NCBI GenBank assembly: GCA_030694975.1
Contig: JAUYTU010000022.1
Span: forward strand, 62,001 to 126,000
Length of the DNA: 64,000 bases
Direction: 5' to 3'
Source of the DNA: Erysipelotrichaceae bacterium
GTDB lineage: Bacteria > Bacillota_I > Bacilli_A > Erysipelotrichales > Erysipelotrichaceae
Positions 25,049 to 64,000 of this stretch are shown here, piece after piece. Below the pieces are notes generated by a model, which was given only the letters and a program-made list of their open reading frames with translations, made no database searches and was not told the origin of the DNA. The first letter of the stretch is position 1, and every line of letters begins with the position of its first letter. The translations under genes and the position numbers were made by a program.

Positions 25049-25085
25049 ATGATAGAAAATGATAGAATATGTTTGAAAATGATAG
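25049..25085 (+). repeat. Phased direct repeats ahead of the sugar operon
   Basis: ATGATAG occurs at 25049, 25059 and 25079; the longer GAAAATGATAG occurs at 25055-25065 and 25075-25085, exactly 20 bases (two helical turns) apart, just upstream of the first gene of the carbohydrate operon. Could be a regulator binding site. Confidence 0.4.
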
Positions 25086-31672: not shown

Positions 31673-32374
31673 ATGAAACTGATAAAACCCTTAAATAAAT
31701 ACTTTGATCATACGATTCTTAAAGCCTTTGCTTCATCGGCGGATATGGATAAAGTCATCGATGAATGCATCCGATATGATTTTCAAATGATTGCGATTAA
31801 TTCTGGACAAGTGAAATATTGCCATGAAAAACTAAAGGATTTTGATGTTAACGTAGGTGCGGCCATTGGTTTTCCTTTGGGTCAGTCAACGATAGAAACC
31901 AAACTTTTTGAAACTCAAAATGCCATTGATAATGGATGTGATGAAATTGATTATGTTGTCAATCTGAGCGAAGTCAAAAACGGTAATTGGAATTATGTCG
32001 AGCGGGAGATGAAGGCAATTGTTGAGATATGTAAAGAACAAGGTATTGTCAGTAAAGTAATATTCGAAAACTGCTATCTGAATCAACGTGAGATCGTGGC
32101 TTTGGCTCAAATTGCCCGTGAAGTCGGTCCGGATTATATAAAAACATCCACCGGTTTTGGTACCGGTGGAGCAACAGTTGAAGATGTGCGTTTGATGAAA
32201 GAATTCGGCGGGCCTAACGTACATGTCAAGGCGGCCGGAGGGATTCGTGATTTGAAAACGGCATTAGCCATGATCGAAGCCGGGGCGACGCGCATTGGGT
32301 CAAGTGCCGGGTGTTCCATCATGGATGAATACAATGGTTTAAAGCAAAGACTTGAAATAATCGATACTTACTAA
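31673..32374 (+). CDS. deoC: Deoxyribose-phosphate aldolase-family (1)
   Basis: 233 residues, canonical DeoC: GFPLGQSTIETK, CDEIDYVVNL, YIKTSTGFGTGGAT with the Schiff-base Lys, VKAAGGIRD with the second Lys, and RIGSSAGCS for phosphate. It splits a 2-deoxy-aldose 5-phosphate or similar to acetaldehyde and an aldehyde phosphate. Four bases after ManA2. Its last 36 bases overlap the converging isomerase gene. In a sugar operon a nucleoside role is unlikely; no deoD or pdp is present. Confidence 0.92.
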   Translation: MKLIKPLNKYFDHTILKAFASSADMDKVIDECIRYDFQMIAINSGQVKYCHEKLKDFDVNVGAAIGFPLGQSTIETKLFETQNAIDNGCDEIDYVVNLSEVKNGNWNYVEREMKAIVEICKEQGIVSKVIFENCYLNQREIVALAQIAREVGPDYIKTSTGFGTGGATVEDVRLMKEFGGPNVHVKAAGGIRDLKTALAMIEAGATRIGSSAGCSIMDEYNGLKQRLEIIDTY

Positions 32375-35831: not shown

Positions 35832-38109
35832 TGCAGGTTCGTTCCATGATTTCTTTTTGAACATCTTTATCCAAATTAACAAAGCGCGCACTGAAACCAC
35901 CGACCCGAACAATCAAATCACGATGTCTTTGTGGGTGATGATAGGCGTCAATGAGGTCTGCTTGATTGACGATGTTGACCATCAGTTGCGGTCCGCCTTT
36001 TTTAAAATAAGTTTTAAACAGAGCTTTGATTTTTACGCGTTCCTGTTCAAACATACGACGAGAAAATTTGATGTTTTGAACCGTGCCGGCATTGATATCT
36101 GCCCGGATTTTAGCCAGTGAATTTAACATGGCCGTCGGACCGTTGATATCCGCACCGCTTTGCGGGTTGTTGGCATTGGACATATACATCCCGGCAATCC
36201 GACCATCGGGTGAACTGGCGGTGGCACGTCCCCACTCCGTGTTGACTTGATTGTTAATTACAACGACCTGCCAACTGTCTAAACCGACTTTTTCAGCTTG
36301 ACTTGCAACGTGTAAACAGGTGAATTCGTGCAACCAAACCGCCAACTGGTCTACTTCATCGATATCATTGCCAAATTTTGGTAAATCAATCATGGCTTGA
36401 CGCAAATCCTGATGACCATCAAAGTCGTGAGCAAGAATGTCTTGTAGCTGCGTCATGGTCAATACTTTATCATCGAATACCAATTTCTTAATCGCATAAA
36501 GAGAATCGGCCGCATTGATGTTGCCGTACATTTCGTTGGTTCCGCCCAGATGGAAGACCCCGCCGTCCAACACCATTTTTCCGCGATTAATGCAATCGTC
36601 GGTCAGGATGCTAGTGAAGATGAATCCAACTTGTTGGTTCATAACTTTATAGGATTGAGCGTGGGATTGAGCTCCGGATTCGATATAGTAGGATAGCTGT
36701 TGTTGATACTGATTCAAAAATTCTTCAAAAGTCTTTATTTCACTCATTTTCTTCAGTTGGAGTGGGCCGAATTTGTATTGGTAATCCCATTGATCGACAC
36801 CGTCATGAATCAGGACGGTTAAGCTTTTCAAAAGATTGATACATACATTTGGGGTGCCAACACCTTTACCAGAGAGCACAAACTCTCCACAACCAAAGGG
36901 TACATAATTACATGCAGTGTCAAAATCAACCTTCATCATTTTCATGACCGCATCAATATTCACATCATCATTGTATAAAATCGGATAGGTGATTCCGGTA
37001 GAAATACTGTCCAACGCTTTCTCAAAGATTTCCGGATCCATTCCATCATAAAAGCGTAAGGTAAATTGCGGTTCGACCATCTGAGCACGTTTGGTAGCTT
37101 CAATGGCAAGTTTACAGAAGACATCCGCATTTTTCTCGTTGCGTCGGCCTCTTCCGCCGACGATGACACGACCGTTAACGTTGGTGCGTTTAACTTCAAT
37201 TAATCGCCATTGCGAAAGAATGAGCTCGACGGCTTCTTCTTCGTTCAAACGACCGGAAGTCAGGTCATTGACCAAGTAGTCGCCTAAGTAGTCATCCATT
37301 CGTCCGTAATTAACGACCCCGGCCACAGATGAGTACAGCCATGCCAATTGCATCGCCGCTAGCATTGTTGAAGGGCGATTCGTACGGATCTCTGTAAGAG
37401 CATTAAGCAAATTTACAAGTTGATGTTTTCTTTTTTCAAGCAGTGTCGATGATAACAGAGTCTTAACTTCACCGATATGATGATCAACAACTTTTTGAAG
37501 CAATTTCAGCGCTTCAATCATGGTTTTATATTCGATGATCGATGAGGGATTTATTTCTTTCTTGGACTCGATTAGATTCATCAAGCCAACAATTCCGTAG
37601 TCCAGCAGTTTATTGTAATCCAGATACATTCCGCTAAAACGAGCGGTAATGATGACCGGATAGCGAACATCCACAAAAGGACCTAACACGTTTTCAAGCA
37701 GGTTATCTTTATAGAAGATTTCACGGGTATCGTGTATTTTCCAATAAGCAATCAACTCATCAATCGTTGAATGGCATTTCTCATCCATGCGACTTTTCAT
37801 TTTTGCCATCTGATCAAATCGACAATAGTGTCCAGGAGCACCGACAGACGTTACGGAGCCAAAACCGATGGGCAATGCATCATAGCGTCCGACCATTAAA
37901 TCGCCTTCGTACATGGGGCGGAAAACATGGGGGAATAATACATTTAAACAAGCGATCTCTCGCTCCAATTTCTGCGCATCGGAAAATTGTTTGTGTGTCT
38001 CAGTATAGCGAACCATGATTTCCAATTGTTCCACATCCGTCTTATACAGAGGTTCTTTGGGTGCCACGGCTACATTTTGTTCATTTTTCTTAAGAATTCG
38101 TTCAATCAT
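35824..38109 (-). CDS. Glycyl radical enzyme of uncertain specificity
   Basis: 761 residues with a C-terminal RVGGFSARF (glycyl radical Gly738, in place of the usual RVxGYSA) and, near residue 405, FGCGEF with thiyl Cys407 followed by Glu409. The C-x-E pattern is that of dehydratase/eliminase GREs, whereas pyruvate formate-lyase has two adjacent Cys. AAAGGAG precedes the ATG at 38109. The unusual N-terminal third and GCGE rather than GCVE separate it from glycerol, choline and hydroxyproline enzymes. Neighbours (sugar isomerases, aldolases) suggest a sugar-phosphate or sugar-acid substrate. Confidence 0.88.
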   Translation of the reverse strand: MIERILKKNEQNVAVAPKEPLYKTDVEQLEIMVRYTETHKQFSDAQKLEREIACLNVLFPHVFRPMYEGDLMVGRYDALPIGFGSVTSVGAPGHYCRFDQMAKMKSRMDEKCHSTIDELIAYWKIHDTREIFYKDNLLENVLGPFVDVRYPVIITARFSGMYLDYNKLLDYGIVGLMNLIESKKEINPSSIIEYKTMIEALKLLQKVVDHHIGEVKTLLSSTLLEKRKHQLVNLLNALTEIRTNRPSTMLAAMQLAWLYSSVAGVVNYGRMDDYLGDYLVNDLTSGRLNEEEAVELILSQWRLIEVKRTNVNGRVIVGGRGRRNEKNADVFCKLAIEATKRAQMVEPQFTLRFYDGMDPEIFEKALDSISTGITYPILYNDDVNIDAVMKMMKVDFDTACNYVPFGCGEFVLSGKGVGTPNVCINLLKSLTVLIHDGVDQWDYQYKFGPLQLKKMSEIKTFEEFLNQYQQQLSYYIESGAQSHAQSYKVMNQQVGFIFTSILTDDCINRGKMVLDGGVFHLGGTNEMYGNINAADSLYAIKKLVFDDKVLTMTQLQDILAHDFDGHQDLRQAMIDLPKFGNDIDEVDQLAVWLHEFTCLHVASQAEKVGLDSWQVVVINNQVNTEWGRATASSPDGRIAGMYMSNANNPQSGADINGPTAMLNSLAKIRADINAGTVQNIKFSRRMFEQERVKIKALFKTYFKKGGPQLMVNIVNQADLIDAYHHPQRHRDLIVRVGGFSARFVNLDKDVQKEIMERTCND

Positions 38110-38136
38110 AAGTGCTCCTTTAGGGTCTACATAAGA

Positions 38137-38165
38137 ATTATAGGGCGGTTCACACAGTGAGTCAA
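38137..38165 (-). promoter_or_regulatory. Strong sigma-A promoter of the GRE operon
   Basis: Minus strand TTGACT, 17-base spacer, TATAAT, 28 bases before the GRE start codon. One of the best promoter matches in the window. Confidence 0.75.
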
Positions 38166-38356
38166 CGAAATATTGCAAATTTGTTAATACAAATAGTTGA
38201 ATTGAGAAAATCGACTGGCAAAACATGTCTTTTTGTGGGAAATTTTGATAAAAAAACGATATTGTGCAAGAAAATGTTTGATTCGAGTGTTTTTATGTTA
38301 TAAAAGCCCGTTTTGTACGATATAAAATGACACATTCTGATAATTTATGAAAGTAT

Positions 38357-40173: not shown

Positions 40174-40878
40174 ATGAACATGGATGCTCTTAAGCAACAA
40201 CTCAAAGGAAAACTGATTGTATCTTGTCAGTCTTTTGAGGGAGAACCGATTCATGGAGAGGGCATCGTTGTGAAGATGGCGGAATGTGCTAAGTGGGCGG
40301 ATGCGGCTGGTATCCGAGCCAACGAACCGCAGAATGTTGCGGATATTAAAGCGGCGGTCGGATTGCCGGTCATCGGTATCTGGAAAGTCGTTCAACCCGG
40401 ATGTGATGTATATATCACTCCGACAATGGAAGCGGTGGACGCATTGGTTCATGCCGGTAGTGATATCGTGGCATTGGATGCGACGGATCGTTTATCTCAT
40501 GACGGACGTAAAGCGTATGAGTTGATTAAAGACATTAAGATGAAGTATCCATTGTTGCCGATTATGGCGGATATATCGACCTTCGAAGAAGGGGTCAATG
40601 CCATTGCGTGGGGTGCGGATTTCATCGGTACGACCTTAAGTGGTTATACGGCTCATTCCCAAAAGACGGAAGGCCCCAATTTTGATTTAATTGAAAAACT
40701 GTGTTCACGCTTTGGGGACAAAGTCATCGCTGAGGGTAAAGTGAACTGCCCGGAAGAGGCGGTTCGCTGTATAAAACTGGGAGCATTGTGTGTCGTGGTT
40801 GGCGGTGCCATCACGCGTCCGCATTTGACGGCCCAACGCTTTGTTTCATTTTTGAAAGAGGTAAAGAACGATGGATGA
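40174..40878 (+). CDS. nanE: N-acetylmannosamine-6-phosphate 2-epimerase family (1)
   Basis: 234 residues, TIM barrel NanE: LIVSCQSFEGEP, GIRANEP, GLPVIGIWK with the catalytic Lys, VYITPTMEAV, MADISTFEEG, AEGKVNCPEEA (Glu) and GGAITRPHLTA. It converts ManNAc-6P to GlcNAc-6P. GGGGGA upstream of the ATG. It overlaps the SIS gene by eight bases. No NanA or NanK exists here, so the source of ManNAc-6P would be PTS import or another epimer. Confidence 0.92.
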   Translation: MNMDALKQQLKGKLIVSCQSFEGEPIHGEGIVVKMAECAKWADAAGIRANEPQNVADIKAAVGLPVIGIWKVVQPGCDVYITPTMEAVDALVHAGSDIVALDATDRLSHDGRKAYELIKDIKMKYPLLPIMADISTFEEGVNAIAWGADFIGTTLSGYTAHSQKTEGPNFDLIEKLCSRFGDKVIAEGKVNCPEEAVRCIKLGALCVVVGGAITRPHLTAQRFVSFLKEVKNDG

Positions 40879-41934: not shown

Positions 41935-41989
41935 ATAAACTCGAAACGGTTGAGTTATAAAGATGTAGGGGTTATTATTTGTATATAAG

Positions 41990-42003
41990 TGTAAGCGATT
42001 ACA
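41990..42003. promoter_or_regulatory. CcpA cre box
   Basis: TGTAAGCGATTACA fits the catabolite-response consensus TGNAAGCGNTTNCA at every fixed position and lies 15 bases before the PTS IIA start, placing the PTS operon under carbon catabolite repression. Confidence 0.8.
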
Positions 42004-42017
42004 AAAAGGAGAGTCAT

Positions 42018-42446
42018 ATGAAATATGTGGTTATGGTCAGTCATGGCGAGTTCGCTCAAGGATTGCGCTCGGCTATACGCATGATGACCGGTGAGCGGGA
42101 TGATATGTTCAGTGTCAGCTTAAAAGAGGACATGGGAACCAATCAGTTCGCAGAAGAATTTTCAAAGCTTATCGAACCGTTTAACAGTGATGACGAAGTG
42201 TTGCTGTTCAGTGACATTCTCAGCGGTTCACCCTTTACAACATCGTTGGACATTCTTAATCAAAGAGGTTTATTGGATAAAACCATGGTCTTTACCGGTA
42301 TGAACATGCCGATGGTACTGACGGCTGTTTTGATGAAGGATAACATCGAGGGGGAAGACTTAAAAGAAGCGATCTTAAGTGAAGGCAGACTGGCAGTTAC
42401 TTTCTTTGATATCAATGCTGTCAAAGAAACCGAAGAAATTATCTAG
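42018..42446 (+). CDS. PTS mannose-family EIIA
   Basis: 142 residues, mannose/fructose/sorbose IIA fold: MKYVVMVSHGEFAQGL with phospho-acceptor His9, then LLFSDILSGSPFTTS and MNMPMVLTAVL. It receives phosphate from HPr. AAAAGGAGA before the chosen ATG; an upstream in-frame extension reads through the cre box. First gene of the IIA-IIB-IIC-IID operon. Confidence 0.93.
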   Translation: MKYVVMVSHGEFAQGLRSAIRMMTGERDDMFSVSLKEDMGTNQFAEEFSKLIEPFNSDDEVLLFSDILSGSPFTTSLDILNQRGLLDKTMVFTGMNMPMVLTAVLMKDNIEGEDLKEAILSEGRLAVTFFDINAVKETEEII

Positions 42447-42457
42447 GAGGAAAAAAC

Positions 42458-42952
42458 ATGGCAATTTCATTTATTCGAGTCGATGACCGTATCGTTCATG
42501 GACAAATTACGACCCGCTGGTCACAAGAGTATCCATGTGATGCGATCGTGGCAGTCAATGACTTGGCGGCTACCAATCCGGTGATTAAGGCGGCGTTTCT
42601 GTCGTCCATCAACAAACCTTTGTACATTTGGACGTATGCCGAATGGAAAGAAAAATGTGACAAAGTACTTCAAAGCCAAAAGAATTATTTCTTAATTACC
42701 AAAGATCCGATATTGATGGCTAAAATATTAGTCGATGATGGTTTTGATTCAGGCAGACGCGAAGTATGTGTCGGTCCGGCCAATGATCGTCCAGGTGCGG
42801 TTAAGTTGGGCAACAATCAGTCGCTGATGCAAAATGAGGCAGATGCTTTCGAAAGAATTCATCAGGCCGGGTATAAGATTTTGTTTGCTTTGGTCAGGGA
42901 AGATGCCATTGGCTACTGGCCGAAATTCCGTGGATTGTTCGGATACAAATAG
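42458..42952 (+). CDS. PTS mannose/fructose/sorbose-family EIIB
   Basis: 164 residues, with RVDDRIVHGQITTRW near the start placing phospho-His14, and VNDLAA, SINKPLYIW and VGPANDRPGA as family motifs. It phosphorylates the sugar during uptake through IIC-IID. AGGAGG precedes the ATG, 11 bases after IIA. Confidence 0.94.
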   Translation: MAISFIRVDDRIVHGQITTRWSQEYPCDAIVAVNDLAATNPVIKAAFLSSINKPLYIWTYAEWKEKCDKVLQSQKNYFLITKDPILMAKILVDDGFDSGRREVCVGPANDRPGAVKLGNNQSLMQNEADAFERIHQAGYKILFALVREDAIGYWPKFRGLFGYK

Positions 42953-43005
42953 GAGTAATTTGTAACCGTTCATCATAAAAAAAACCTAAGGAAAGGGAGG
43001 ATTTT

Positions 43006-43830
43006 ATGACTATCAATATTTTTCAGGCCGTTCTTCTAGCATTTATGGCCTCAATGACGTCAGTAATCGGTGCTTTAGGTACTACGTATTCGTGGTATAC
43101 CTTGAGCCGTCCGTTAGTTGCGGCATTGATCGTCGGTATCATTCTTGGTGACGTTTCGACATCAATTATGGTCGGTGCAGCTATTCAGATCGTTTACATT
43201 GCTTTGGTTACTCCAGGCGGAACCGTTTCAGCTGACTTACGTGCTGTCAGTTACATCGGTATTCCTTTAGCAGTTATCGCTGTTAACGGCGCTGGATTAG
43301 ACCCTGCTTCGGTACAAGGCGCAGGTCTTGCAGTTTCTATCGGTGCTTTAGTTGGTACAGTCGGAACCGTTATGTTCTACTCTACCGCTACAATGAACCT
43401 TATTTGGCAACAATGGGGTTGGAAATCGATCGACAGTCTTGGATACAAGAACATTTACTTAACGAACTTCGTACTCCCGTTAATTTCTCACTTCTTGATC
43501 GCATTTATTCCTACCTATTTGATTACTATCAACGGAGCTCCTTTTGTTGCTAACCTGAAAGAATGGTTACCGATGGATGGAATCGTCATGAAGACATTGT
43601 TCACCGTTGGTACATTACTACCGGCCGTTGGTATCGCCATCCTGTTGAAGCAAGTAGTAGCTAAACCGACAGACTTGATCGTCTTCTTCTTCGGTTTCAC
43701 ATTGGCCGCAGCGTTGAAGATCAACTTGATTGGTGCCGCTTTCTTCGGCGCTATGATTGCTTACTTGAATTACAAGATTGTAATGGCTGGATCTACCAAA
43801 AAAGCAGTAGCAGAAGAGGAGGACCTCTAA
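43006..43830 (+). CDS. PTS mannose/fructose/sorbose-family EIIC
   Basis: 274 residues, strongly hydrophobic with about eight membrane helices; LSRPLVAALIVGIILGDVSTSIMVG and LVTPGGTVSADLRAVSYIGIP correspond to ManY/SorA-type IIC. Forms the membrane channel with IID. AAAGGGAGG upstream; the 3' end is one base from IID. Codon use here is noticeably cleaner than the surrounding genes, as for a highly expressed gene. Confidence 0.93.
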   Translation: MTINIFQAVLLAFMASMTSVIGALGTTYSWYTLSRPLVAALIVGIILGDVSTSIMVGAAIQIVYIALVTPGGTVSADLRAVSYIGIPLAVIAVNGAGLDPASVQGAGLAVSIGALVGTVGTVMFYSTATMNLIWQQWGWKSIDSLGYKNIYLTNFVLPLISHFLIAFIPTYLITINGAPFVANLKEWLPMDGIVMKTLFTVGTLLPAVGIAILLKQVVAKPTDLIVFFFGFTLAAALKINLIGAAFFGAMIAYLNYKIVMAGSTKKAVAEEEDL

Positions 43831-43831
43831 G

Positions 43832-44665
43832 ATGAGCGTTAAATTAAGCAAACAAACGAAAAACTCAGCATTCTGGTGGTGGTATCATGGTAACTTAACA
43901 GGATTTACGCATCAACATATGCAAACCTTTGGTTTTATGTGCGCAATGATCCCGGTTATCAAAGAATTGTATCAAGATGACACATTAAGACTTCGTTCAT
44001 TGAAGACTTATAGTCCGTTCTTCAACACGGAACCTCAAATCGGTTCAATGGTTGTCGGTATTGCTGTAGGTTTGGAAGAAGCTCGCGCCAATGGTGCTGA
44101 TGCTATCGATGATGCGATGATCAATGGTATCCGTGCTGGTTTGATGGGTCCGTTGGCAGGTATCGGCGACTCCTTAATTCCGGGCACCTATATTCCTATT
44201 CTATTGTCTATCGCATTGGGCTTCTCGGCTGGCGGTTCTGTTGTTGGTCCGTTGTTCTATGCAGCAGTTTATATTTCGACCATGACCGTTTTCATGAAGT
44301 ATATCTTCGATAAAGGTTATGAATTGGGCGGCCGTGCTGTTGATGTAGTTATCGGCGATCGTGCTACTGCTTTCCGTGAATCCATGATTATGCTTGGTGG
44401 TATCGTTATCGGTTCATTGGCAGCTTCTTGGATCGGTGTTACAACCGCATTGCAATTCTCTTTGGGCGAAGGAAATCCGCCATTGATTTTGCAAGATACA
44501 TTAAACAGTATTTTCCCGAATGTCTTGTCCTTATTAACCGTGCTATTTGCATGGTGGTTGATGACAAAGAGAAAAATGTCTCCGATTACAGTTATGTTGA
44601 TTTTGGTCGGCATCGCTTTCGTCGGTGTATTGCTTGGCGTCTTCGATCCGGGTCTATCGTACTAA
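43832..44665 (+). CDS. PTS mannose/fructose/sorbose-family EIID
   Basis: 277 residues: FWWWYHGNLTGFTHQHMQTFGFMCAM is split as WWWYHGNLT and QTFGFMCAM, then FFNTEPQIGSMVVGIAVGLEE, GLMGPLAGIGDSLIPGTYIP, all diagnostic of IID. GAGGAGG is at the end of IIC. IIC-IID completes the permease, whose sugar is unresolved; with NanE and NagA nearby an N-acetylated hexosamine or mannose-type sugar is inferred. Confidence 0.94.
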   Translation: MSVKLSKQTKNSAFWWWYHGNLTGFTHQHMQTFGFMCAMIPVIKELYQDDTLRLRSLKTYSPFFNTEPQIGSMVVGIAVGLEEARANGADAIDDAMINGIRAGLMGPLAGIGDSLIPGTYIPILLSIALGFSAGGSVVGPLFYAAVYISTMTVFMKYIFDKGYELGGRAVDVVIGDRATAFRESMIMLGGIVIGSLAASWIGVTTALQFSLGEGNPPLILQDTLNSIFPNVLSLLTVLFAWWLMTKRKMSPITVMLILVGIAFVGVLLGVFDPGLSY

Positions 44666-51496: not shown

Positions 51497-51784
51497 AGTG
51501 CCTCCATTAGCTACATTTGGATAAAAGTAAGTTTTGACATTAATCTGCCTAGTATTGTTGATTTGAACCAATGATTCATCTGTATGATTCTCAGAATAAT
51601 GCGAATATTTTTAATATTCTATCACAAATCTGTTTAACTGACTAATGATTTTTGAGTGATTTCATTTTACGCATCTACAACTGTTGGTCTATATATATTT
51701 TAATGTTATAAACGTCAAATTTGTCGGTATTCTGTTACTTTTTGATAACTTTTGTTATATAATAATCGCAAGGAGATTGATCAC

Positions 51785-52558
51785 ATGTTAGCTAGCGAAA
51801 GGTTGATTTATATTATTAATCGGTTGGATGAACACCCGGCCGTGTCGATTCGGCAATTATCGAAGGAGTTGGGGGTTTCGGAAGCTACAGTTCGCCGGGA
51901 TTTGGATGAGTTGGAGAGGCAGGGACGTCTGAAAAGACAACATGGTGGTGCAGTTTTGAACAGTGTTGTTCATACACTAACTCAGATTTCGGACTATCCG
52001 ATGAATCTGCGCAGCACGATTAATTGCGATAAGAAAAAATTGGTTTGTGATATGGCTTCGGTTTTAGTTGAAGATGATATGTGTATTTATGTGGATGGAG
52101 GGTCGACGACGGCTTTTATTATCCCGCATTTGATGAAAAAACGCGTTCATATCGTTACACCCAACATGATGGCTATCAAGAAAATGAAGCCTTTTGCCGG
52201 AACGGTGCATATGATCGGCGGTACCTATGATATTTATCATGAAACCGTTGTGGGAAGTCTGGCAACTTCCGAAGCCGGAAACTTTCGCTATGATTTGGCG
52301 TTTATCGGTGCATCCGGACTAGATCCTGTAACCAAAGAATGTTACTCCGCATCGTTGGAAGTTGCGGCTCAAAAACAAGCAGTCATGAAACATTCGATCA
52401 CCAATATCTTATTGGTTGATTCAGGTAAATTTGAGAAGCGCGGTTTCTGTCTTTTTGCGATGACAGATGAATTTGATATCGTATACACCGATGAAATCCC
52501 GGAAGAATGCAATATTGAGAATTTAGCAGGTGTTGAGAAGAATCATGAGAAAGCCTAG
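51785..52558 (+). CDS. DeoR/GlpR-family sugar regulator
   Basis: 257 residues: DeoR helix-turn-helix SIRQLSKELGVSEATVRRDLDELERQG, QHGGAV, and the DeoRC effector domain with YVDGGSTTAF, FIGASGLDP and LLVDSGKF. These respond to phosphosugars. AAGGAGA precedes the chosen ATG. It stands alone with its own terminator; whether it regulates the nearby sugar cluster is unknown. Confidence 0.92.
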   Translation: MLASERLIYIINRLDEHPAVSIRQLSKELGVSEATVRRDLDELERQGRLKRQHGGAVLNSVVHTLTQISDYPMNLRSTINCDKKKLVCDMASVLVEDDMCIYVDGGSTTAFIIPHLMKKRVHIVTPNMMAIKKMKPFAGTVHMIGGTYDIYHETVVGSLATSEAGNFRYDLAFIGASGLDPVTKECYSASLEVAAQKQAVMKHSITNILLVDSGKFEKRGFCLFAMTDEFDIVYTDEIPEECNIENLAGVEKNHEKA

Positions 52559-56347: not shown

Positions 56348-56479
56348 TGATTCATACCTCACACACCCTATTATATCGTATGTTGATTGGATTTTAAAGA
56401 ATCGCAAAGTCTATTTGATTGTTTTTGCAAATTTTAGTAAACTTATAATAGAATATGAAAGAATTTAGGAAGGACGACC

Positions 56480-57157
56480 ATGAGAAAAGCGATTATCAGC
56501 TGTGCGGTCTTTGAGCCTTATCTCAAAATACTATTAAGGAACAGAAATGACATTGCTTCCGTCGTTTTTTTAGAAGTGAAACAACATAATCATCCGGAGC
56601 AGTTGGCACAATTGCTTCAACAAGGTATCGACCGAATCCGGGATGTTGATGAAATATTGGTGATGTATGGCTTGTGCGGTAACGCCATTTTACCTTTGAA
56701 AAGCATTGGGATTCCCATTCGTTTCCTTAAAGTCCATGACTGTGGTATGGTTTTGGCGGGAAGTCGAAAACGCTATAAAGAACTTTTTGCCCATCGATTA
56801 AGTCAAAGTTATGCTTGTGCCGCCTATGATGTCTTGGAGTCCTCTGAGAATTATCGTATGTCGTTGGAGTATCTACGTATTAAGCAAGAATATGGTGAGG
56901 ATAATGCGGAGTATATACTAGAGACGTTGCATAAACCGAAAAACGAAACGACGGTCTTTTTTGATTTCGGATTGACGGAAGATCAAGCATTTTTAAGAAA
57001 ACATGCCGGTCGACCTCTGGAAGTTGTGAGTGGCGGCTGGCAAATGATGCAAGATTTCATCGATGGAAAAGATAATGATGCCGTTGTTCTTAAAGAAAAT
57101 GAAGAACTGTTCGCAATTTATGATTTAGACGAAGTGTTCGTCAGTCGGGAGAAATGA
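56480..57157 (+). CDS. DUF1638 protein
   Basis: 225 residues with the family core: MRKAIISCAVF, MYGLCGNAI, HDCGMVLAG (Cys and His likely metal ligands) and SGGWQMM. DUF1638 genes recur beside corrinoid methyltransferase genes in methanogens and clostridia, consistent with the downstream corrinoid module. AGGAAGG upstream. Reaction unknown. First gene of the second catabolic cluster; one base separates it from the next stop-start. Confidence 0.8.
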   Translation: MRKAIISCAVFEPYLKILLRNRNDIASVVFLEVKQHNHPEQLAQLLQQGIDRIRDVDEILVMYGLCGNAILPLKSIGIPIRFLKVHDCGMVLAGSRKRYKELFAHRLSQSYACAAYDVLESSENYRMSLEYLRIKQEYGEDNAEYILETLHKPKNETTVFFDFGLTEDQAFLRKHAGRPLEVVSGGWQMMQDFIDGKDNDAVVLKENEELFAIYDLDEVFVSREK

Positions 57158-57158
57158 T

Positions 57159-57794
57159 ATGAAACTACAATTGGCTTTGGATGTGTGTACGATTGAAGAA
57201 GGAATTGATTTGGTTGTATCTGTGAGAGACTATATTGATATCATTGAAATCGGAACACCCTTGATTTTAGAACACGGACTGCGACCGGTCGCGCTTTTTA
57301 AAGAAAGATTTCCGGACAAACTCATTCTGGCGGATGCGAAGATCATGGATGCCGGGGAACATGAGGCAAAACTGTGCTTTACTAAAGGAGCGGATATTGT
57401 AACGGTTCTCGGTGTTGCTCATGATTCGACGATTGCCGGAGTAGTCAAAGCCGCCAAAACTTTCGGTAAGCAAGTGTTGGTCGATATGATCGATGTGCAC
57501 GACATTCAGTCAAGAGCGTTGGAAATCGAGAAATTAGGTGCGGATTATCTTTGTGTTCATACGGCTTTCGATATCCAATCAACCGGAGTTAATCCGCTCG
57601 ATGAACTTCGATTAATCAATTCAGTACTAACGGTTGGAAAAGCGGCGGTTGCCGGGGGTGTAAAAGTTGTGACTGTGGGGGATATTGTGAAGGAACATCC
57701 GGAGATCATTGTGGTTGGTGGAGGAATTTCTGCTCAATCAGATCCTGTATTTTCGGCTAGACGGATCAAGGAAATCATGGAGGAAAGAGGATGA
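57159..57794 (+). CDS. hxlA: 3-hexulose-6-phosphate synthase
   Basis: 211 residues, orotidine-decarboxylase-superfamily barrel: LQLALDVCTIEEG, VDIVEIGTP-like EIGTPLILEHG, ILADAKIMDAGEHEA and VAGGVKVVTV. HPS condenses formaldehyde with ribulose 5-phosphate to hexulose 6-phosphate, or runs backwards to make ribulose 5-phosphate. Overlaps the phosphohexuloisomerase by four bases (ATGA), the standard pairing. UlaD-type decarboxylase is the alternative but the PHI partner argues for HPS. Confidence 0.88.
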   Translation: MKLQLALDVCTIEEGIDLVVSVRDYIDIIEIGTPLILEHGLRPVALFKERFPDKLILADAKIMDAGEHEAKLCFTKGADIVTVLGVAHDSTIAGVVKAAKTFGKQVLVDMIDVHDIQSRALEIEKLGADYLCVHTAFDIQSTGVNPLDELRLINSVLTVGKAAVAGGVKVVTVGDIVKEHPEIIVVGGGISAQSDPVFSARRIKEIMEERG

Positions 57795-58351
57795 ATGCCA
57801 GAGAAAAAGTTTTGTTGGTCGTTTCTGAATTAAGAGAAGCATTGACACGCATTCCCTTGGGAATGACTGAGGAAGTATGCGATGTTTTGTTAGGAGCTGA
57901 TGAAATTTTCGTGGCGGGTGCCGGTCGCAGCGGTCTGATGGCGCGTGCCTTCTGTATGCGCCTGATGCATCTGGGCTTGCGAAGCTATATGGTTGGAGAA
58001 GTCGTTACTCCGAATTTGAGAGACAGTGGGGTTTTGGTCATCTGTTCGGGATCGGGCGAGACGAAGAGTTTGGTATCCATGGCTGAAAAAGCAGTGTCCA
58101 TCGGCGCTCCGATCGTGTTGGTTACCATCAATCCGGAATCGACCGTCGGTAAGATGGCGAATGTCATTGTTAAGATTGAAGCACCATCCCCAAAAGCGGT
58201 TAAAGAAGGCGATATCATCTCGATTCAACCGATGGGCAATTTGTTTGAGCAAAGTTTACTGCTCTATTTAGATATCGTAATCATGGTGCTGATGGATCGT
58301 TTAAGTATCGATAAAAACAATATGTTTTCGCGTCATGCGAACTTAGAGTAG
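57791..58351 (+). CDS. hxlB: 6-phospho-3-hexuloisomerase
   Basis: 186 residues, single SIS domain: FVAGAGRSGLMARAFCMRLMHLG, MVGEVVTPNL, VICSGSGETKSLVSMAEKA, all PHI-type. Interconverts hexulose 6-phosphate and fructose 6-phosphate. Translationally coupled to HPS by the ATGA overlap. The pair would fix free formaldehyde or, reversed, supply pentose phosphate and release formaldehyde. Confidence 0.92.
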   Translation: MNAREKVLLVVSELREALTRIPLGMTEEVCDVLLGADEIFVAGAGRSGLMARAFCMRLMHLGLRSYMVGEVVTPNLRDSGVLVICSGSGETKSLVSMAEKAVSIGAPIVLVTINPESTVGKMANVIVKIEAPSPKAVKEGDIISIQPMGNLFEQSLLLYLDIVIMVLMDRLSIDKNNMFSRHANLE

Positions 58352-58384
58352 AAAAATCAAAACTTATATGATGATTGAAATTGA

Positions 58385-58403
58385 AAGAATATGCAAGAAT
58401 ATG
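58385..58403 (+). repeat. Direct repeat AAGAATATG ahead of the second nanE
   Basis: AAGAATATG at 58385-58393 and 58395-58403, exactly 10 bases apart, upstream of the promoter. The core GAATATG is shared with sites upstream of the SIS operon (25065) and the DUF1638 gene (56451). Confidence 0.35.
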
Positions 58404-58414
58404 ACAATTATTTG

Positions 58415-58443
58415 TTGTGGAAACGTGTTTTTTGACCTATAAT
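58415..58443 (+). promoter_or_regulatory. Putative promoter of the second nanE
   Basis: TTGTGG, 17-base spacer, TATAAT, 28 bases ahead of the start. Confidence 0.5.
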
Positions 58444-58470
58444 ATAGGTGTTAATACGAAGGAGATCGTT

Positions 58471-59220
58471 ATGCCAAGAAGAAAAAGTGAAATCATTGAA
58501 AAGATGAAGGGTGGTTTGATTGTTTCATGTCAAGCCTATCCGGATGAACCGATTTACACCGAGGATATCGTTCTGGTTATGGCCAGAGCTGCACTGTGGG
58601 CAGGGGCTGTGGGAATTCGGGCGAATTCGCCACGCGATATCCGCTTGATCAAAAGTGAGATTGATTTACCCATCATTGCGCTGTATAAAATGTGGTTTGA
58701 AAACACCGATGTCTTCATCACACCGACGTTGGACGGGTGTATTCAGTTGATTGAAGCCGGAGCCGATATCATTGCTTTGGACTGTACTTTTCAAATCAAT
58801 CACGAAGGTAAAAGAGCGATTGAGTTACTGCCGAGATTAAAAGAAGCGTATCCGGATGTCTTGGTATTTGCGGATGTTTCGACCATTGAAGAAGCTCGTG
58901 AAGCGGTTCGTTTAGGTGCGGATATTGTGGCTCCGACGTTGTATGGTTATACAAAAGAGACGGCTCACATCGAAGGTGCGGACTATCGGATGTTCGGTGA
59001 ATTTTGTCGGGAGTTGAATGAGGATGCCTATGTCTTTATGGAAGGACATATCTATACACCGGAAGATGCGATGAAATGTATTTTCTTAGGTGCTCATGCG
59101 GTTGTTGTCGGTGGTGCAATTACGCGTCCGCATTTAACCGCGAAACGTTATGTTGATTTGCTTAGTGGTTATCAGGATAATTGGCGTAATGCCGAGCGTA
59201 GCAAGCACGTTCACAAATAA
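58471..59220 (+). CDS. nanE: N-acetylmannosamine-6-phosphate 2-epimerase family (2)
   Basis: 249 residues: GLIVSCQAYPDEP, GIRANSP, IIALYKMWFENTDVFITPT with the catalytic Lys, FADVSTIEEA, FMEGHIYTPEDA (Glu) and GGAITRPHLTA. Clearly NanE-fold and complete, but longer and only moderately similar to the copy at 40174, so it may act on a different 2-acylamino-hexose phosphate. AAGGAGA precedes the chosen ATG; it has its own promoter and terminator. Confidence 0.85.
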   Translation: MPRRKSEIIEKMKGGLIVSCQAYPDEPIYTEDIVLVMARAALWAGAVGIRANSPRDIRLIKSEIDLPIIALYKMWFENTDVFITPTLDGCIQLIEAGADIIALDCTFQINHEGKRAIELLPRLKEAYPDVLVFADVSTIEEAREAVRLGADIVAPTLYGYTKETAHIEGADYRMFGEFCRELNEDAYVFMEGHIYTPEDAMKCIFLGAHAVVVGGAITRPHLTAKRYVDLLSGYQDNWRNAERSKHVHK

Positions 59221-59226
59221 TGATTT

Positions 59227-59255
59227 AACTGACGATTTTCGCGTCAGTTTTTTAT
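59227..59255 (+). terminator. Rho-independent terminator
   Basis: AACTGACG (59227-59234) / CGTCAGTT (59242-59249), then TTTT. It closes the short second-nanE unit just ahead of the corrinoid operon. Confidence 0.85.
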
Positions 59256-59289
59256 AGAATTATCAAAGAATCTCAAAAGAGGAGGAACT

Positions 59290-59931
59290 ATGAGTCATCA
59301 AGAAATTTTGGAAAACCTTCAGGAAAAGGTCCTCAAGGGAAAAATCAAGGAAATCGAGCAGTTATGTCAATCCGCACTTGAAGAGGGGTTGAGTGCTATG
59401 GAGATTTTGGAAGGTGGTTTACTGATGGCGATGCAACGGGTTGCGGAAGCCTGGAAAAACGGTACAGCCTTCATCCCAGAAGTTCTAATCACAGCACGGG
59501 CGATGAACATCGGTTTGGCCGTTTTGGAACCTCATCTGGCACAAGGGGAGCGGAAAAATCGGGGAAAAGTTGTCGTTGGAACCGTTTTGGATGATCAGCA
59601 TGACATCGGTAAAAACCTGATTGGCTTGATGTTAAAGTCACGCGGTTTTGAAATTGTTGATTTGGGTGTCAATGTAAAACCGCAGAAATTTGTGGATGCG
59701 ATTAAAGAACACAAACCTCAAGTTCTTTGTATGTCCGCCTTACTGACGACGTCGATGATTCATTTTAAAGAAGTTATCCGTGCACTCGAAGAAAATGATG
59801 TAAGGAAAGATTTGTTGATTTGTGTCGGTGGAGCACCGGTCACAGAGGCGTATTCTCAACAAGTCAATGCCGATGTATATACACCGGATGCCGTATCTTT
59901 AGCCGATTTACTAGAAGCACGCTTTGCGTAA
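59290..59931 (+). CDS. Corrinoid (cobalamin-binding) methyl-carrier protein
   Basis: 213 residues: N-terminal helical cap (EILEGGLLMAMQRVAEAWKNG), then the B12-binding domain with DDQHDIGKNL (DxHxxG, base-off axial His), MLKSRGFEIVDLGVNV and CVGGAPVTEAYSQQVNADVYTPDA. This is the shuttle of corrinoid methyltransferase systems. GAGGAGG upstream. Followed 12 bases later by a UroD-type methyltransferase, its likely partner. Confidence 0.93.
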   Translation: MSHQEILENLQEKVLKGKIKEIEQLCQSALEEGLSAMEILEGGLLMAMQRVAEAWKNGTAFIPEVLITARAMNIGLAVLEPHLAQGERKNRGKVVVGTVLDDQHDIGKNLIGLMLKSRGFEIVDLGVNVKPQKFVDAIKEHKPQVLCMSALLTTSMIHFKEVIRALEENDVRKDLLICVGGAPVTEAYSQQVNADVYTPDAVSLADLLEARFA

Positions 59932-59943
59932 GGAGGGTATGTT

Positions 59944-61080
59944 ATGCCATTGGATCCATCGAAATTTCCAAAAGCGAAGAAAGATCTGTTAAGCCGTGAT
60001 GAAGTGAAGGCCATAATTAAGGGGAAGAGTTTAACCCGTCCGGCACAGTGCATCACACCGGTTTTGTATTTGCCTTCGGAGCAACCCATCCGTCAAAAAG
60101 AGATGGAGCAGATCATTGAGGAATATCCGGATGATGCTGTATTCTTTGAGTATACCCGTCCGAAAAACTTTGGTAAGCCGGGCGATCGTTATGTGTGGTG
60201 TGATGTCGAGAATGCCGATCCTTTGTTGCATAAAAATGAGGATGAAATCGGTATTGATGAGAAGACAGCGTTGGAATGGGAAGTTATTGAAAAGATTTCT
60301 TTCGATGTACCTGATCCCTATTTTCCTGAATGTCTGGTTCAGGATTATTTCGAGGATGACGGCCGTTATCGCGGGATTTTCTGGACGCGACTGTCCTTTG
60401 AACGTTTATGGCATTTCCGTGGTATGACCAATACGTTGATGGATTTTTATACAAATCCGGATGAGGTTAAAGCACTGTTGAAGAAGTTAAGAACTATAAT
60501 ATTTAAGGTTATTGACCGGTCTGTCGATGAATATCATTTTGATGCCATCGCTTTTACTGATGATATCGGAATGCAAGACCGACCGTTTTTCTCAGAGGAT
60601 ATTTTCTTGGAGTTCATTAAGCCACACTATAAAGAAGTGATCGATTACGCTCATTCAAAGGGAATGGATGTCTGGTTACATACATGCGGGAATGTCGAAC
60701 CGTTTATCCCACACATGATTGAAATCGGTTTGGATGTATTGCATCCGATTCAGAAGTATTCGATGGATGAGGAGAAAATCATTGAACTATACCGTGATCA
60801 GATTTGTTTCTGGGCTGGGATGGAAGTTCAACGGATTCTGCCCTTTGGTTCAACGGACGATGTCCGTCAGGAAATGCGCTTTCTGATTGATAATTTCTAC
60901 TTGCCGGAAAAAGGACGACTGGTATTGGCTAGTGGAAATCGCTTCCGTCACGATATTCCCACCGAGAATATTCGGGCATTCTTTGAAGAATTATATTCCT
61001 ATGGTTGCTACGTTGCGAAACACGGTGTTGGCAAACACGAATCACCTTCCAAAGGTCATACGGTTATGCCGGATCGCTGA
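59944..61080 (+). CDS. UroD-family methyltransferase (MtaA/CmuA-like)
   Basis: 378 residues, uroporphyrinogen-decarboxylase-fold: TDDIGMQDRPFFSEDIF, KGMDVWLHTCGNVEPFIPHMIE with the H-x-C zinc pair, and ASGNRFRHDIPTENIRAF at the C-terminus. Members move methyl groups between a substrate and the corrinoid protein; the third zinc Cys of MtaA is not obvious here. Overlaps the next start by one base. No separate methyl-donor MT1 is present, so this protein may itself accept the substrate. Confidence 0.85.
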   Translation: MPLDPSKFPKAKKDLLSRDEVKAIIKGKSLTRPAQCITPVLYLPSEQPIRQKEMEQIIEEYPDDAVFFEYTRPKNFGKPGDRYVWCDVENADPLLHKNEDEIGIDEKTALEWEVIEKISFDVPDPYFPECLVQDYFEDDGRYRGIFWTRLSFERLWHFRGMTNTLMDFYTNPDEVKALLKKLRTIIFKVIDRSVDEYHFDAIAFTDDIGMQDRPFFSEDIFLEFIKPHYKEVIDYAHSKGMDVWLHTCGNVEPFIPHMIEIGLDVLHPIQKYSMDEEKIIELYRDQICFWAGMEVQRILPFGSTDDVRQEMRFLIDNFYLPEKGRLVLASGNRFRHDIPTENIRAFFEELYSYGCYVAKHGVGKHESPSKGHTVMPDR

Positions 61081-62543
61081 TGAATATAAAAAAAGGATCA
61101 AATTTATTAGAGGAAGTTCGCACTCAAGGAGCGCTGAGTGCCCTTTGTAATGGCCGGGGAATGTGTTGCAAGTGTAAGGTACAGGTTAACAAGGCGTTGC
61201 CGTTGAGTGAAATTGAAATCAAACTTCTGTCTCCACTTCAAATCAATCAGAATATCCGGTTGGCCTGTCAACATCCGATCTTGGAAGAGGATGTCCATGT
61301 TTCGTTGGTTGATAAGGAAAATATGGTCGTACTGGGGTTGGATCGGGGTCATGTCGATATAAAAAAAGCTTCTTCAGAGTTGCTTTTAGCTATCGATCTG
61401 GGAACAACAACGGTAGTTATGGTACTGATCGATGGCAAAAGCGGTGAAGTACTGTTGGAACACAAATTGATCAATCCACAACGTACTTACGGAGCGGATG
61501 TCTTGTCGCGCATCGAAGTGACGTTGACACATAACGATGTCTGTCATCGTTTGATTAAGAATGAAGTTAAAAAAATCGTGGAGGATATGGTGCATCGATA
61601 TCCGTCCAAATCGATAACAATAGGAATCACCGGCAATACAACGATGAGTCATTTGTGGCTCAATGCGGATGTACGTCCATTGGTACAGCTTCCTTATCGG
61701 CCCTCCGTAAGCAAACAAATGATTCAATCCATCCAAGCGGAGTTGGGTATCGATGTTGAGGGTAACATCATTGTCTATCCGCCGATTGCTGCATATCTGG
61801 GTTCGGATATACTGGCCGGTATGTCGTTGATTGATTTATTTGAAACAAGAGAAAACATCTTCTTCATCGATTTAGGAACCAATGGGGAGATTGTTTTAGT
61901 CAGTGATGGACAACTGTATGCGACCAGTACAGCCGCCGGACCGGCGTTTGAAGGTGTGAATATGTCTTCGGGATGTGGGGCAGTGGATGGCGCGATGGAT
62001 CATTTTTTTGTAAGTGAAGGGAAAATAAATTACACGACGATCAACGAAGGTTCACCCATCGGCATCTGTGGTTCCGGATATATTGATTTGATCAGTTGTT
62101 TACTTGATGGACCCCTGGAATCCAGTGGATTTCTGATGGATGAGGTTGTTTTGCATGACGATCCCAGGATATCTATCACTCAGAAAGATATCCGTGAGTT
62201 TCAGCTTGCGAAAGCTGCGATTAGAAGCGGCATGGATATGTGTTTGATCCGAGCCGGGATTTCGTATGATCAGCTAGATTCATTGATTATTGCGGGCGGA
62301 TTCGGTAAGCATATCAACCTCGATGCCGCGATTAATATCGGATTGATTCCTAAGGAATGTAAGGATAATACCCTTTTTATCGGAAATTCATCCTTAGCCG
62401 GTTGTGTCAGTTGGCTGTCTGAAGAGAAGAAAGTACCGAGTCAATGGAATATTGAATCCATTAAAGTGATTGAATTGGCGAGTAGTGCTAAGTGGTTAGA
62501 ATTATTTAGCGATCATATGATGTTTGAAGGAGGAAATTTATGA
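61080..62543 (+). CDS. RACo-type corrinoid activation protein
   Basis: 487 residues: N-terminal ferredoxin-like [2Fe-2S] motif (LCNGRGMCCKCKVQ, later LACQHP), then a DUF4445/ASKHA ATPase domain with AIDLGTTTVVMVLIDG, FIDLGTNGEIVL, GPAFEG, ICGSGYIDLIS and IAGGFGKHI. RACo reductively reactivates Co(II) corrinoid proteins using ATP. The start is the ATG overlapping the methyltransferase stop; the usual N-terminal part of the ferredoxin domain is absent or very short. Confidence 0.9.
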   Translation: MNIKKGSNLLEEVRTQGALSALCNGRGMCCKCKVQVNKALPLSEIEIKLLSPLQINQNIRLACQHPILEEDVHVSLVDKENMVVLGLDRGHVDIKKASSELLLAIDLGTTTVVMVLIDGKSGEVLLEHKLINPQRTYGADVLSRIEVTLTHNDVCHRLIKNEVKKIVEDMVHRYPSKSITIGITGNTTMSHLWLNADVRPLVQLPYRPSVSKQMIQSIQAELGIDVEGNIIVYPPIAAYLGSDILAGMSLIDLFETRENIFFIDLGTNGEIVLVSDGQLYATSTAAGPAFEGVNMSSGCGAVDGAMDHFFVSEGKINYTTINEGSPIGICGSGYIDLISCLLDGPLESSGFLMDEVVLHDDPRISITQKDIREFQLAKAAIRSGMDMCLIRAGISYDQLDSLIIAGGFGKHINLDAAINIGLIPKECKDNTLFIGNSSLAGCVSWLSEEKKVPSQWNIESIKVIELASSAKWLELFSDHMMFEGGNL

Positions 62544-62980
62544 CAGTACACGAAAAGATTGCAATCGATTTGTATAATCAGGGATATAACTGTTCTCAAG
62601 CGGTATTTTGTGCGTTTTGCGATGTTACCGGGTTAGAGCGGGATGAAGCATTTAGAATATCTTCGTCTTTTGGCGGTGGTATGGGACGTTTGGGTGAGGT
62701 TTGTGGTGCTCTGAGTGGTGCATTTATGGCAACGGAGATGTTGCTCAGTGGTACGGATGAGAAAGATAAAGTCGCCAAGGATAAACATTATTTACGCGTC
62801 AAGCAATTGGGAGAGCAGTTTCGTGAGAGTAAAGGTTCATTGCTCTGTCGGGATTTATTGGTAATCAATAATAATCGCATGGAAGAAACGCGTGATGGAG
62901 TGAAGGTTAAGGAATGTGAACATCTGGTCGCGGTTGCGGCGAAGATGTTGGATGAATATCTCGAAGAACTGAAAGGCTAG
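62540..62980 (+). CDS. C-GCAxxG-C-C family protein
   Basis: 146 residues: YNCSQAVFCAFC, then FGGGMGRLGEVCGALSGAFMA (GEVCGA) and two further Cys (LLCRDLL, VKECEHLV), the diagnostic Cys spacing. Such proteins are small metal or thiol proteins often near redox genes. Coupled to the RACo gene by a four-base overlap and 9 bases from deoC. Confidence 0.9.
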   Translation: MTVHEKIAIDLYNQGYNCSQAVFCAFCDVTGLERDEAFRISSSFGGGMGRLGEVCGALSGAFMATEMLLSGTDEKDKVAKDKHYLRVKQLGEQFRESKGSLLCRDLLVINNNRMEETRDGVKVKECEHLVAVAAKMLDEYLEELKG

Positions 62981-62989
62981 GGAGTAATT

Positions 62990-63727
62990 ATGAGAAAAAA
63001 AGCAAGTAAAATGTCAGTTAGGGAATTGGCGTCGTATATTGATCAATCGGTATTGAAACCGGAGTTTTCGGAATCAGAAATCCGTAAGTACATTCAAGAA
63101 GGAATTGATGTTGGCTGTCGGACGGTTTGTATCAATCCATCCGCCTTGGATATAGCTCAAGAAATGTGCAAGGGAACCGATACGAAGGTTTGTGTCGTCT
63201 GTGATTTTCCCTTTGGTTTAAGTACGACTGAGTCCAAAGTCATGCAAGCCAAGATGTATTGTGATGGCTGGGATGTATTTGAGTTGGATGTTGTGGCTAA
63301 CTATGGTTGGATTCGCAGTGGTAAGTGGGATCTGGTGCGTGATGATATCAAGGCGGTTTGTGATGAGTGTCATAAGCACCATGTGGAAGTTAAGGTCATT
63401 TTCGAAACCGATGCCTTAACGTTGGATGAAGTGAAGAAGGCAACGGAAGTTGCGATTGAGGCTGGGGCTGATTTCGTTAAGACATCGACCGGATTTTTTA
63501 CCAGTAAAACCGATGGAGCGTCCGTTGAAGTTATTTCCGCGATGATGGAAGTGGCGAATGGTCGTTGTAAAATCAAGGGATCGGGTGGTATTCGTACCCG
63601 TGAAGCCTTTTTGAATTTAATCGATATGGGCATTGATCGTATGGGAATCGGTTATAAGTCGACCCCTGTGGTTTTAGATATTGCCAATCAAAAAAAGGAT
63701 GATTCCGGTTGGAAAGAAACTTACTGA
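62990..63727 (+). CDS. deoC: DeoC-family aldolase (2) with altered phosphate motif
   Basis: 245 residues: CDFPFGLSTTESK, FVKTSTGFFTSKTDGAS with the Schiff-base Lys, IKGSGGIRT with the second Lys, but the phosphate loop reads RMGIGYKSTPVV instead of RIGTSSG/RIGSSAG. The core matches 2-deoxyribose-5-phosphate aldolase, though substrate recognition probably differs. Its last codons overlap the TTG start of the next gene. Function inferred as aldol cleavage of an uncommon deoxy-sugar. Confidence 0.85.
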   Translation: MRKKASKMSVRELASYIDQSVLKPEFSESEIRKYIQEGIDVGCRTVCINPSALDIAQEMCKGTDTKVCVVCDFPFGLSTTESKVMQAKMYCDGWDVFELDVVANYGWIRSGKWDLVRDDIKAVCDECHKHHVEVKVIFETDALTLDEVKKATEVAIEAGADFVKTSTGFFTSKTDGASVEVISAMMEVANGRCKIKGSGGIRTREAFLNLIDMGIDRMGIGYKSTPVVLDIANQKKDDSGWKETY

Positions 63728-64000
63728 CAAACGTCAGTCTGGATGATGTTGCGCGATTGCGTATTCATCGTTTAAGAAAGAAAAGGCTTGATACCAAGGC
63801 TTCGCTGTGTTCGCAGCGGGCTTTGTTGTATACGGAATCGTTCAAGCAAACGGAGAATGAGCCATATATTTTAAGAAAAGCCAAAGCGTTTGCTCATACC
63901 TTGGATCATATGTCAATTTTCATTGAAGCGGACAGTCTGATTTTCGGAAATATGGCATCCAAGAATTTTGCGGCACCGATTTATCCGGAATATTCGATGG
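63709..64000 (+). CDS. Second glycyl radical enzyme, 5' part, cut by window end
   Basis: An open frame from TTG 63709 (AGGA nine bases upstream) reads RALLYTESFKQTENEPYILRK, then ADSLIFGNMASKNFAAPIYPEYSM, the diagnostic GRE N-terminal motifs RAxLxTES, dELIVGN and PEYS. It overlaps the deoC stop. The catalytic Cys and Gly lie beyond the window, as presumably does the activase. Unlike the first GRE its N-terminus is canonical. Confidence 0.8.
   Translation, partial: MERNLLTNVSLDDVARLRIHRLRKKRLDTKASLCSQRALLYTESFKQTENEPYILRKAKAFAHTLDHMSIFIEADSLIFGNMASKNFAAPIYPEYSM

Follow-up and report, generated by a model that had tools for sequence, protein, structure and literature searches.

A conserved gene cluster joining NanE, glycyl radical enzyme and hexulose-phosphate genes with a corrinoid methyltransferase module in an Erysipelotrichaceae bacterium

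Contig JAUYTU010000022.1 of an Erysipelotrichaceae bacterium (assembly GCA_030694975.1), a member of a poorly known anaerobic lineage, carries a cluster in which genes for NanE, 3-hexulose-6-phosphate synthase (HPS, HxlA), 6-phospho-3-hexuloisomerase (PHI, HxlB), a DeoC-type aldolase and a glycyl radical enzyme (GRE) stand beside genes for B12-dependent methyl transfer. It lies at the end of the window, the 64,000-nucleotide stretch analyzed here (bases 62001-126000 of the 130-kb contig), and continues in extended window coordinates that run past 64000. Tentatively, and just short of an even chance, we read this cluster as one half of a split sugar-catabolism system with a built-in B12 methyltransferase module, the other half being region 2 of the window (25-46 kb). 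The two very likely belong to a single sugar pathway. For the corrinoid module, we claim an association with the sugar genes and no action on the sugar itself. Enzymes of region 2 are designated GRE-A, NanE-A and DeoC-A, and those of the cluster studied here GRE-B, NanE-B and DeoC-B; MT-1 is the methyltransferase at 59944, and MT-2 a second UroD-family methyltransferase beyond the window. Genus labels (g1 being the window's own genus) come from the genome search tool.

Genes were identified from open reading frames and profile searches of the window. All ten genes that a preliminary description of this DNA had named on one strand were found in that order on the forward strand, from DUF1638 to the start of GRE-B, with matching positions and families (Table 1). 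Two starts were corrected: RACo most likely begins at ATG 61080, which overlaps the methyltransferase stop (TTG 61005 being less likely), and NanE-B at ATG 58471, preceded by AAGGAG. The window ends inside GRE-B, and the contig extends another 4.3 kb; following it downstream, as the preliminary description had advised, yielded the remainder of GRE-B (ending at 66126), an activase (66107-67012) and MT-2 (67037-68179), after which the contig ends. Five related contigs share the gene order as far as each reaches, and the three that reach beyond MT-2 carry a SIS protein gene there. The order is kept in genomes L008, L009, L010 and L012 with protein identities of ~71-98%; it is conserved across the genus, beyond chance. 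No Rfam RNA family was found above threshold within 24-64 kb of the window.

The association between the sugar genes extends beyond the genus. Among 273 genomes of the Erysipelotrichaceae-type family, the GRE-A type is present in 53, HxlA in 60 and both in 45. HxlA thus occurs in 45 of the 53 GRE-A genomes vs 15 of the 220 others (Fisher p 4e-30, a value that ignores shared ancestry and genome size), and by genus in 21 of 23 vs 5 of 37. HPS-PHI tracks the NanE-GRE module. A methyltransferase was found in 13 genomes of seven genera, all 13 with the GRE-A type and 11 with HxlA; the two without HxlA are estimated to be 79% and 90% complete and consist of many contigs.

Gene neighborhoods in related genera bring the two halves of the proposed system together. 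The g184 row consists of hxlA, hxlB, an MtaA/CmuA-like UroD gene, a CobW-like GTPase, DUF1638, the corrinoid protein, MT-1 and RACo, followed by a DeoC-B-type gene, a GRE-B-type gene, an activase, one small gene, a GRE-A-type gene and an activase, so that both GRE types stand in tandem with hxlAB, deoC and corrinoid genes. A row of ~23 kb in g16 comprises hxlB, hxlA, a DeoC-B-type gene, a PMI fusion, phosphotransferase system (PTS) genes, PMI, DeoR, PMI and NanE, and then a GRE-A-type gene, activase, DUF1638, RACo, corrinoid protein, an MtaB-like gene and an MT-2-type gene. Without corrinoid genes nearby, g171 groups hxlB, hxlA, a DeoC-B-type gene, C-GCAxxG, activase, a GRE-A-type gene and NanE, and g201 (L127 704-9889) has, in one same-strand row lacking corrinoid genes, four tandem GRE-A-type enzymes, two NanE without Tyr149, an activase, PTS IIB/IIC/IID and a DeoC-B-type gene. 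The NanE-GRE pair is spread over many genera of the family and extends to Parabacteroides, where a ROK sugar kinase, NanE, a GRE-A-type enzyme and an activase are adjacent on a Parabacteroides distasonis replicon (Bacteroidota; L149 10191-15172). Two modules can thus be distinguished: a sugar module (NanE, GRE, DeoC-type aldolase, HPS-PHI and mannose-type PTS), widespread without methyltransferases, and a corrinoid module. The repetition of NanE, DeoC and GRE in both clusters, which the preliminary description had judged unlikely to be chance, is borne out by the merged neighborhoods of g184 and g16, by the pairing of the NanE-B type with GRE-A elsewhere, and by a shared triple repeat. A separate arrangement was noted in g14 (L021 4199-17324), in which a corrinoid module has PTS genes in its vicinity, along with what by eye looks like a GH4 phospho-glycosidase gene.

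The shared repeat emerged from the regulatory regions. The sequence 5' of DUF1638, which includes a TATAAT box, hardly varies among four genomes; a TATAAT box also lies in the separate, likewise conserved region 5' of nanE-B. The terminator that follows nanE-B scores a z of about -3 against shuffles in the four genomes folded; a second hairpin, 3' of hxlB, is present in three relatives and eroded in the window. Because of these conserved terminators and hairpins and the separate nanE promoter region, the cluster probably forms three transcription units, namely DUF1638-hxlAB, nanE, and corrinoid protein to MT-2; transcription as a single operon is unlikely on the same grounds. A direct repeat was first obtained by comparing the upstream regions of DUF1638-hxlAB and nanE. 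Allowing up to 3 mismatches, it occurs at three sites in the 64 kb (25053, 56449 and 58385) vs 0.24 expected, and 1 of 100 shuffles gave three; all are on the forward strand and precede sugar-cluster genes (the first gene of region 2, DUF1638-hxlAB and nanE, respectively). A generalized form, three WWGAAWWTG units at a 10-bp period, has two sites in the 64 kb and arose in 0 of 200 shuffles, a result that overstates significance because the motif was drawn partly from the sites tested, the region-2 site being independent of the first pattern. Two further genomes from the genus, L155 and L156, retain the region-2 site. Since the triple repeat stands only 5' of nanE and of region 2, the two clusters are probably one regulon, as judged from the sequence. 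A DeoR-family regulator encoded between them is a candidate binder of the repeats. Directly after this DeoR gene, L009 (2961-3728) and L012 (3064-3801) carry a third NanE copy; the matching position of the window is occupied by a Fic-like gene on the opposite strand.

The sugar-side enzymes retain the residues expected of their families. HxlA aligns end to end with the HPS structures 3ajx (204 residues) and 3f4w. NanE-B possesses all six catalytic residues, Gln11, Arg40, Lys63, Asp124, Glu180 and Arg208 (residue roles from PMC8482478), together with Tyr149, the tyrosine that touches the acetamide methyl group; an altered C2 pocket was ruled out, since Tyr149 is present once the protein is numbered against S. 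aureus NanE. NanE proteins adjoining GRE-A share the signature PTLYGYT / EGH (PTLFGYT in one case), which NanE-A lacks and from which the two g201 proteins deviate again. NanE-B is thus of the type that elsewhere pairs with the GRE of region 2. DeoC-B has the two active-site lysine motifs (KTSTGF and IKGSGGIR), and GRE-B has GCVE at the active cysteine (Cys-x-Glu) and an RVAGY glycyl loop. GRE-A represents a separate lineage, with ~25% identity to YbiW, PflD and GRE-B. Homologues of the region-2 PTS adjoin the same genes in g16, g172 and g201.

The involvement of B12 methyl transfer, which the preliminary description had proposed, is borne out; a corrinoid protein, MT-1 and RACo were identified. 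MT-1 scores below the curated cut-offs of related models (MtaA 39 bits vs 400; mtaA_cmuA 37 vs 235). The zinc motif of SCMT enzymes (MtaA/MtbA) is H-x-C...C. MT-1 retains H246 and C248 of this motif, and MT-1 and MT-2 types retain H-x-C-G, with the distal cysteine replaced by asparagine, so that the full motif is absent; the distal cysteine is present in the MtaA/CmuA-like UroD partners of related genera. MT-2 is 46% identical to MT-1; the latter constitutes a clade on a long branch within the MT-2-type proteins and was seen only in g1 and g184. The predicted structure of MT-1 is of low confidence (pLDDT 54), and a fold search with it returned UroD and MtaA-type structures and nothing on substrate; a plasmid search gave three distant, partial matches only. 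DUF1638, a probable helper in corrinoid reactivation, has been linked together with a RamA-like protein, by mutant fitness, to B12 reactivation for methionine synthesis in Phaeobacter (PMC5764234).

A possible destination of the methyl group is encoded elsewhere in the same genome, of which selected stretches were examined. A stand-alone folate:corrinoid methyltransferase (C32:4082-4921; NF005719 349 vs 259 bits) heads a row that continues with an MTHFR-like gene and two ETF genes, the latter assigned by eye (L126 4082-7575); an FTHFS gene is also present. The methyltransferase is the sole pterin-binding protein found, and it rules out a genome devoid of folate methyltransferase. Among 50 family genomes tested, this stand-alone form occurs only in the window's genus; the other listed matches sit in frames of ~770-860 residues, of MetH-like length, except for a second 272-residue copy within the genus. 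No match at threshold was obtained in g16, g172, g182 and g184, and the methyl acceptor there may therefore differ. In g16, an MtaB-like methanol:corrinoid methyltransferase (L022 10194-11573; 434 bits vs a curated cut-off of 720) adjoins the corrinoid core, with NanE-GRE close by, which makes methanol a live candidate donor in that genus.

Gene identities, conservation, co-occurrence and shared repeats suggest the following reactions, substrates and direction of methyl flow. Through the mannose-type PTS of region 2, a sugar of the hexose type would enter as the 6-phosphate; a 2-amino sugar, a 2-acetamido sugar or a close analogue is most likely. NanE-B would invert C2. GRE-A, and GRE-B for a second substrate, would break a C-O or a C-N bond through radical elimination, yielding a deoxy-keto sugar phosphate to be split by the DeoC-type aldolase. 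HxlA and HxlB could handle 3-keto/2-keto hexose-6-phosphates and the pentose and formaldehyde balance; a C3 ketyl route in GRE-A would, speculatively, give a 3-keto hexose-6-phosphate, the compound class of HxlA/HxlB. MT-1 would transfer a methyl group from a donor to the corrinoid protein, kept active by RACo and DUF1638, and the methyl group might leave via MT-2 and/or to folate through the methyltransferase-MTHFR-ETF operon. A more specific version, in which MT-1 demethylates a PTS-delivered methylated sugar phosphate, the methyl passes to folate, and the NanE-paired GRE makes a 3-keto deoxy sugar that is cleaved by HxlA/HxlB and the DeoC-type aldolase, would amount to an undescribed anaerobic pathway; we consider it unlikely. 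No evidence names a methylated sugar, one of the substrates that the preliminary description had suggested, and the g16 core pairs with an MtaB-like methanol methyltransferase.

Alternatively, and on the doubtful side in our estimation, the corrinoid module may be an independent unit that merely neighbors the sugar genes, carrying methyl groups from methanol, methyl-sulfur compounds or the like to folate or a thiol, comparable to the mlp gene clusters or to a split methionine synthase. Such a unit would agree with the corrinoid genes of g14, g172, g182 and g183, which lack these adjoining sugar genes, with the MtaB-like partner in g16, with the role of DUF1638 and a RamA-like protein in methionine synthesis in Phaeobacter (PMC5764234), and with the conserved terminator that separates nanE from the corrinoid genes. 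The terminator and the separately standing corrinoid genes weigh against our main reading, as do the occurrence of most sugar modules without a corrinoid module, the lack of a direct-repeat site 5' of the corrinoid protein gene, a transaldolase/FSA-family gene in the genome (HPS-PHI therefore not being the sole conceivable pentose route), and the reservations attached above to the shuffle and co-occurrence statistics. An independent unit is harder to reconcile with the adjacency to sugar genes in three genera in differing arrangements: DUF1638 is directly 5' of hxlAB here and directly 3' of nanE-GRE-activase in g16, and both here and in g184 the corrinoid genes form an unbroken row with those for the aldolase and GRE. 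MT-1, moreover, is a divergent clade that was seen nowhere but within the sugar cluster. The unlinking of the two modules in homologous genomes, named in the preliminary description as evidence that would tell against its model, was seen in part: they are adjacent in three of the seven methyltransferase genera and apart in four, yet all 13 methyltransferase genomes have a GRE.

The remaining explanations concern HPS-PHI. Corrinoid demethylation systems leave the methyl group as methyl-corrinoid, and to our knowledge no route leads from corrinoid demethylation to formaldehyde. The formaldehyde version of the model in the preliminary description, in which a methylated sugar or methoxylated compound is catabolized and its C1 unit released as formaldehyde for fixation by HPS-PHI, therefore appears very improbable; HPS-PHI does neighbor the corrinoid genes and HxlA scores above its curated cut-off, but HPS-PHI tracks GRE, in many genomes without a methyltransferase, and a folate route for the methyl group is encoded. 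It is also decidedly unlikely that HPS-PHI only makes pentose phosphate from fructose-6-phosphate and that the sugar genes constitute an ordinary amino-sugar pathway in which the GREs are spare. In favor of this explanation, HxlA is frequent in the family, and NanE and the NagA of region 2 are amino-sugar enzymes; the strong co-occurrence of HxlA with GRE, the common neighborhoods of hxlAB, deoC and GRE in several genera, and the transaldolase/FSA-family gene speak against it. The last also weakens the idea that HPS-PHI replaces a missing transaldolase.

Table 1. Features of the cluster, of region 2 and of the associated regulatory DNA (window coordinates).
Feature	Position	Strand	Remarks
DUF1638 protein, probable helper in corrinoid reactivation	56480..57157	+	PF07796 74.8 bits
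hxlA, 3-hexulose-6-phosphate synthase	57159..57794	+	TIGR03128 255 bits vs cut-off 200
hxlB, 6-phospho-3-hexuloisomerase	57791..58351	+	TIGR03127 222 bits vs cut-off 160
nanE, GRE-linked type (NanE-B)	58471..59220	+	NF002231 246 bits vs cut-off 189
Corrinoid protein, putative methyl carrier	59290..59931	+	PF02607 and PF02310; DQHDIG cobalamin motif
UroD-family corrinoid methyltransferase MT-1	59944..61080	+	PF01208 65 bits
RACo-type reductive activator of corrinoid protein	61080..62543	+	PF14574 190 bits, PF17651 122 bits
C-GCAxxG-C-C putative redox protein	62540..62980	+	PF09719 118 bits
DeoC-type class I aldolase (DeoC-B)	62990..63727	+	TIGR00126 192 bits vs cut-off 117
GRE-B start, PFL2-type, YbiW/PflD-like	63709..64000 (to 66126 extended)	+	576 bits to YbiW structures
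Two-copy direct-repeat version	56449..56467	+	AGAATATGNAAGAAT, 0 mismatches; overlaps -10 region of conserved DUF1638-hxlAB promoter
Triple direct repeat WWGAAWWTG, 10-bp period, candidate operator 5' of nanE-B	58375..58403	+	
Intrinsic terminator 3' of nanE-B	59227..59255	+	8-bp stem and T run, conserved in five genomes
Other triple direct repeat	25053..25081	+	30 bp 5' of first region-2 gene (SIS protein, 25111)
DeoC-type aldolase of region 2 (DeoC-A)	31673..32374	+	TIGR00126 229 bits
GRE-A, NanE-linked glycyl radical enzyme family	35824..38226	-	GCGE and RVGGF motifs
Canonical-type NanE of region 2 (NanE-A)	40174..40878	+	NF002231 271 bits; EGK where signature has EGH
Mannose-family PTS IIA, IIB, IIC, IID, likely importer	41979..44665	+	assigned by reading sequences
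DeoR-family regulator between clusters	51752..52558	+	assigned from sequence; ~98% identical in L009 and L012

Also encoded at the beginning of region 2 (25111-31669), 3' of its triple repeat, are SIS, SDR, FAD oxidoreductase, phosphotriesterase-like, KDPG-aldolase-like, NagA and PMI proteins.

The locus offers concrete candidates for a radical sugar pathway, comprising PTS, NanE, GRE, DeoC-type aldolase and HPS-PHI. In the papers searched, no function was found for the NanE-linked GRE family, which reaches the gut species P. distasonis besides the 53 family genomes, and nothing direct on GRE combined with hexulose synthase, NanE or methylated sugars. If the corrinoid link is true, the cluster would provide a lead on anaerobic demethylation of sugars; a full-text search returned no paper joining methylated sugars and corrinoids.

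Among known systems, the sugar module resembles the E. coli pathway in which YbiW and PflD open 1,5-anhydroglucitol- and 1,5-anhydromannitol-6-phosphate delivered by PTS (Ma et al., in the account given in PMC12441222): both combine a PTS-delivered 6-phosphate (here predicted), a GRE with its activase and an aldolase gene near the GRE. GRE-B is equidistant from YbiW (38% identity) and PflD (36%), as far as those two are from each other (38%). The cluster differs in having a DeoC-type aldolase where E. coli has FsaA and in adding NanE, HPS-PHI, a second, unrelated GRE and the corrinoid module. NanE-B is like sialic-acid NanE in its catalytic residues and Tyr149, and unlike it in its clade signature and its genetic pairing with GRE; no sialate lyase was recognized in the cluster. 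On the corrinoid side, type 1 mlp gene clusters (Kountz and Balskus, PMC10418091) differ in that MT-1 and MT-2 lack the distal cysteine of MtaA/CmuA-like UroD proteins and are surrounded by sugar genes. The corrinoid O-demethylases of acetogens (OdmB/VdmB type), compared by description only, likewise combine a UroD-superfamily enzyme (PMC10418091), a corrinoid protein and an activator, but the present cluster has no folate methyltransferase. The MtaABC methanol:corrinoid system finds its counterpart in g16, where the same core is paired with an MtaB-like protein, whereas the cluster described here contains no MtaB.

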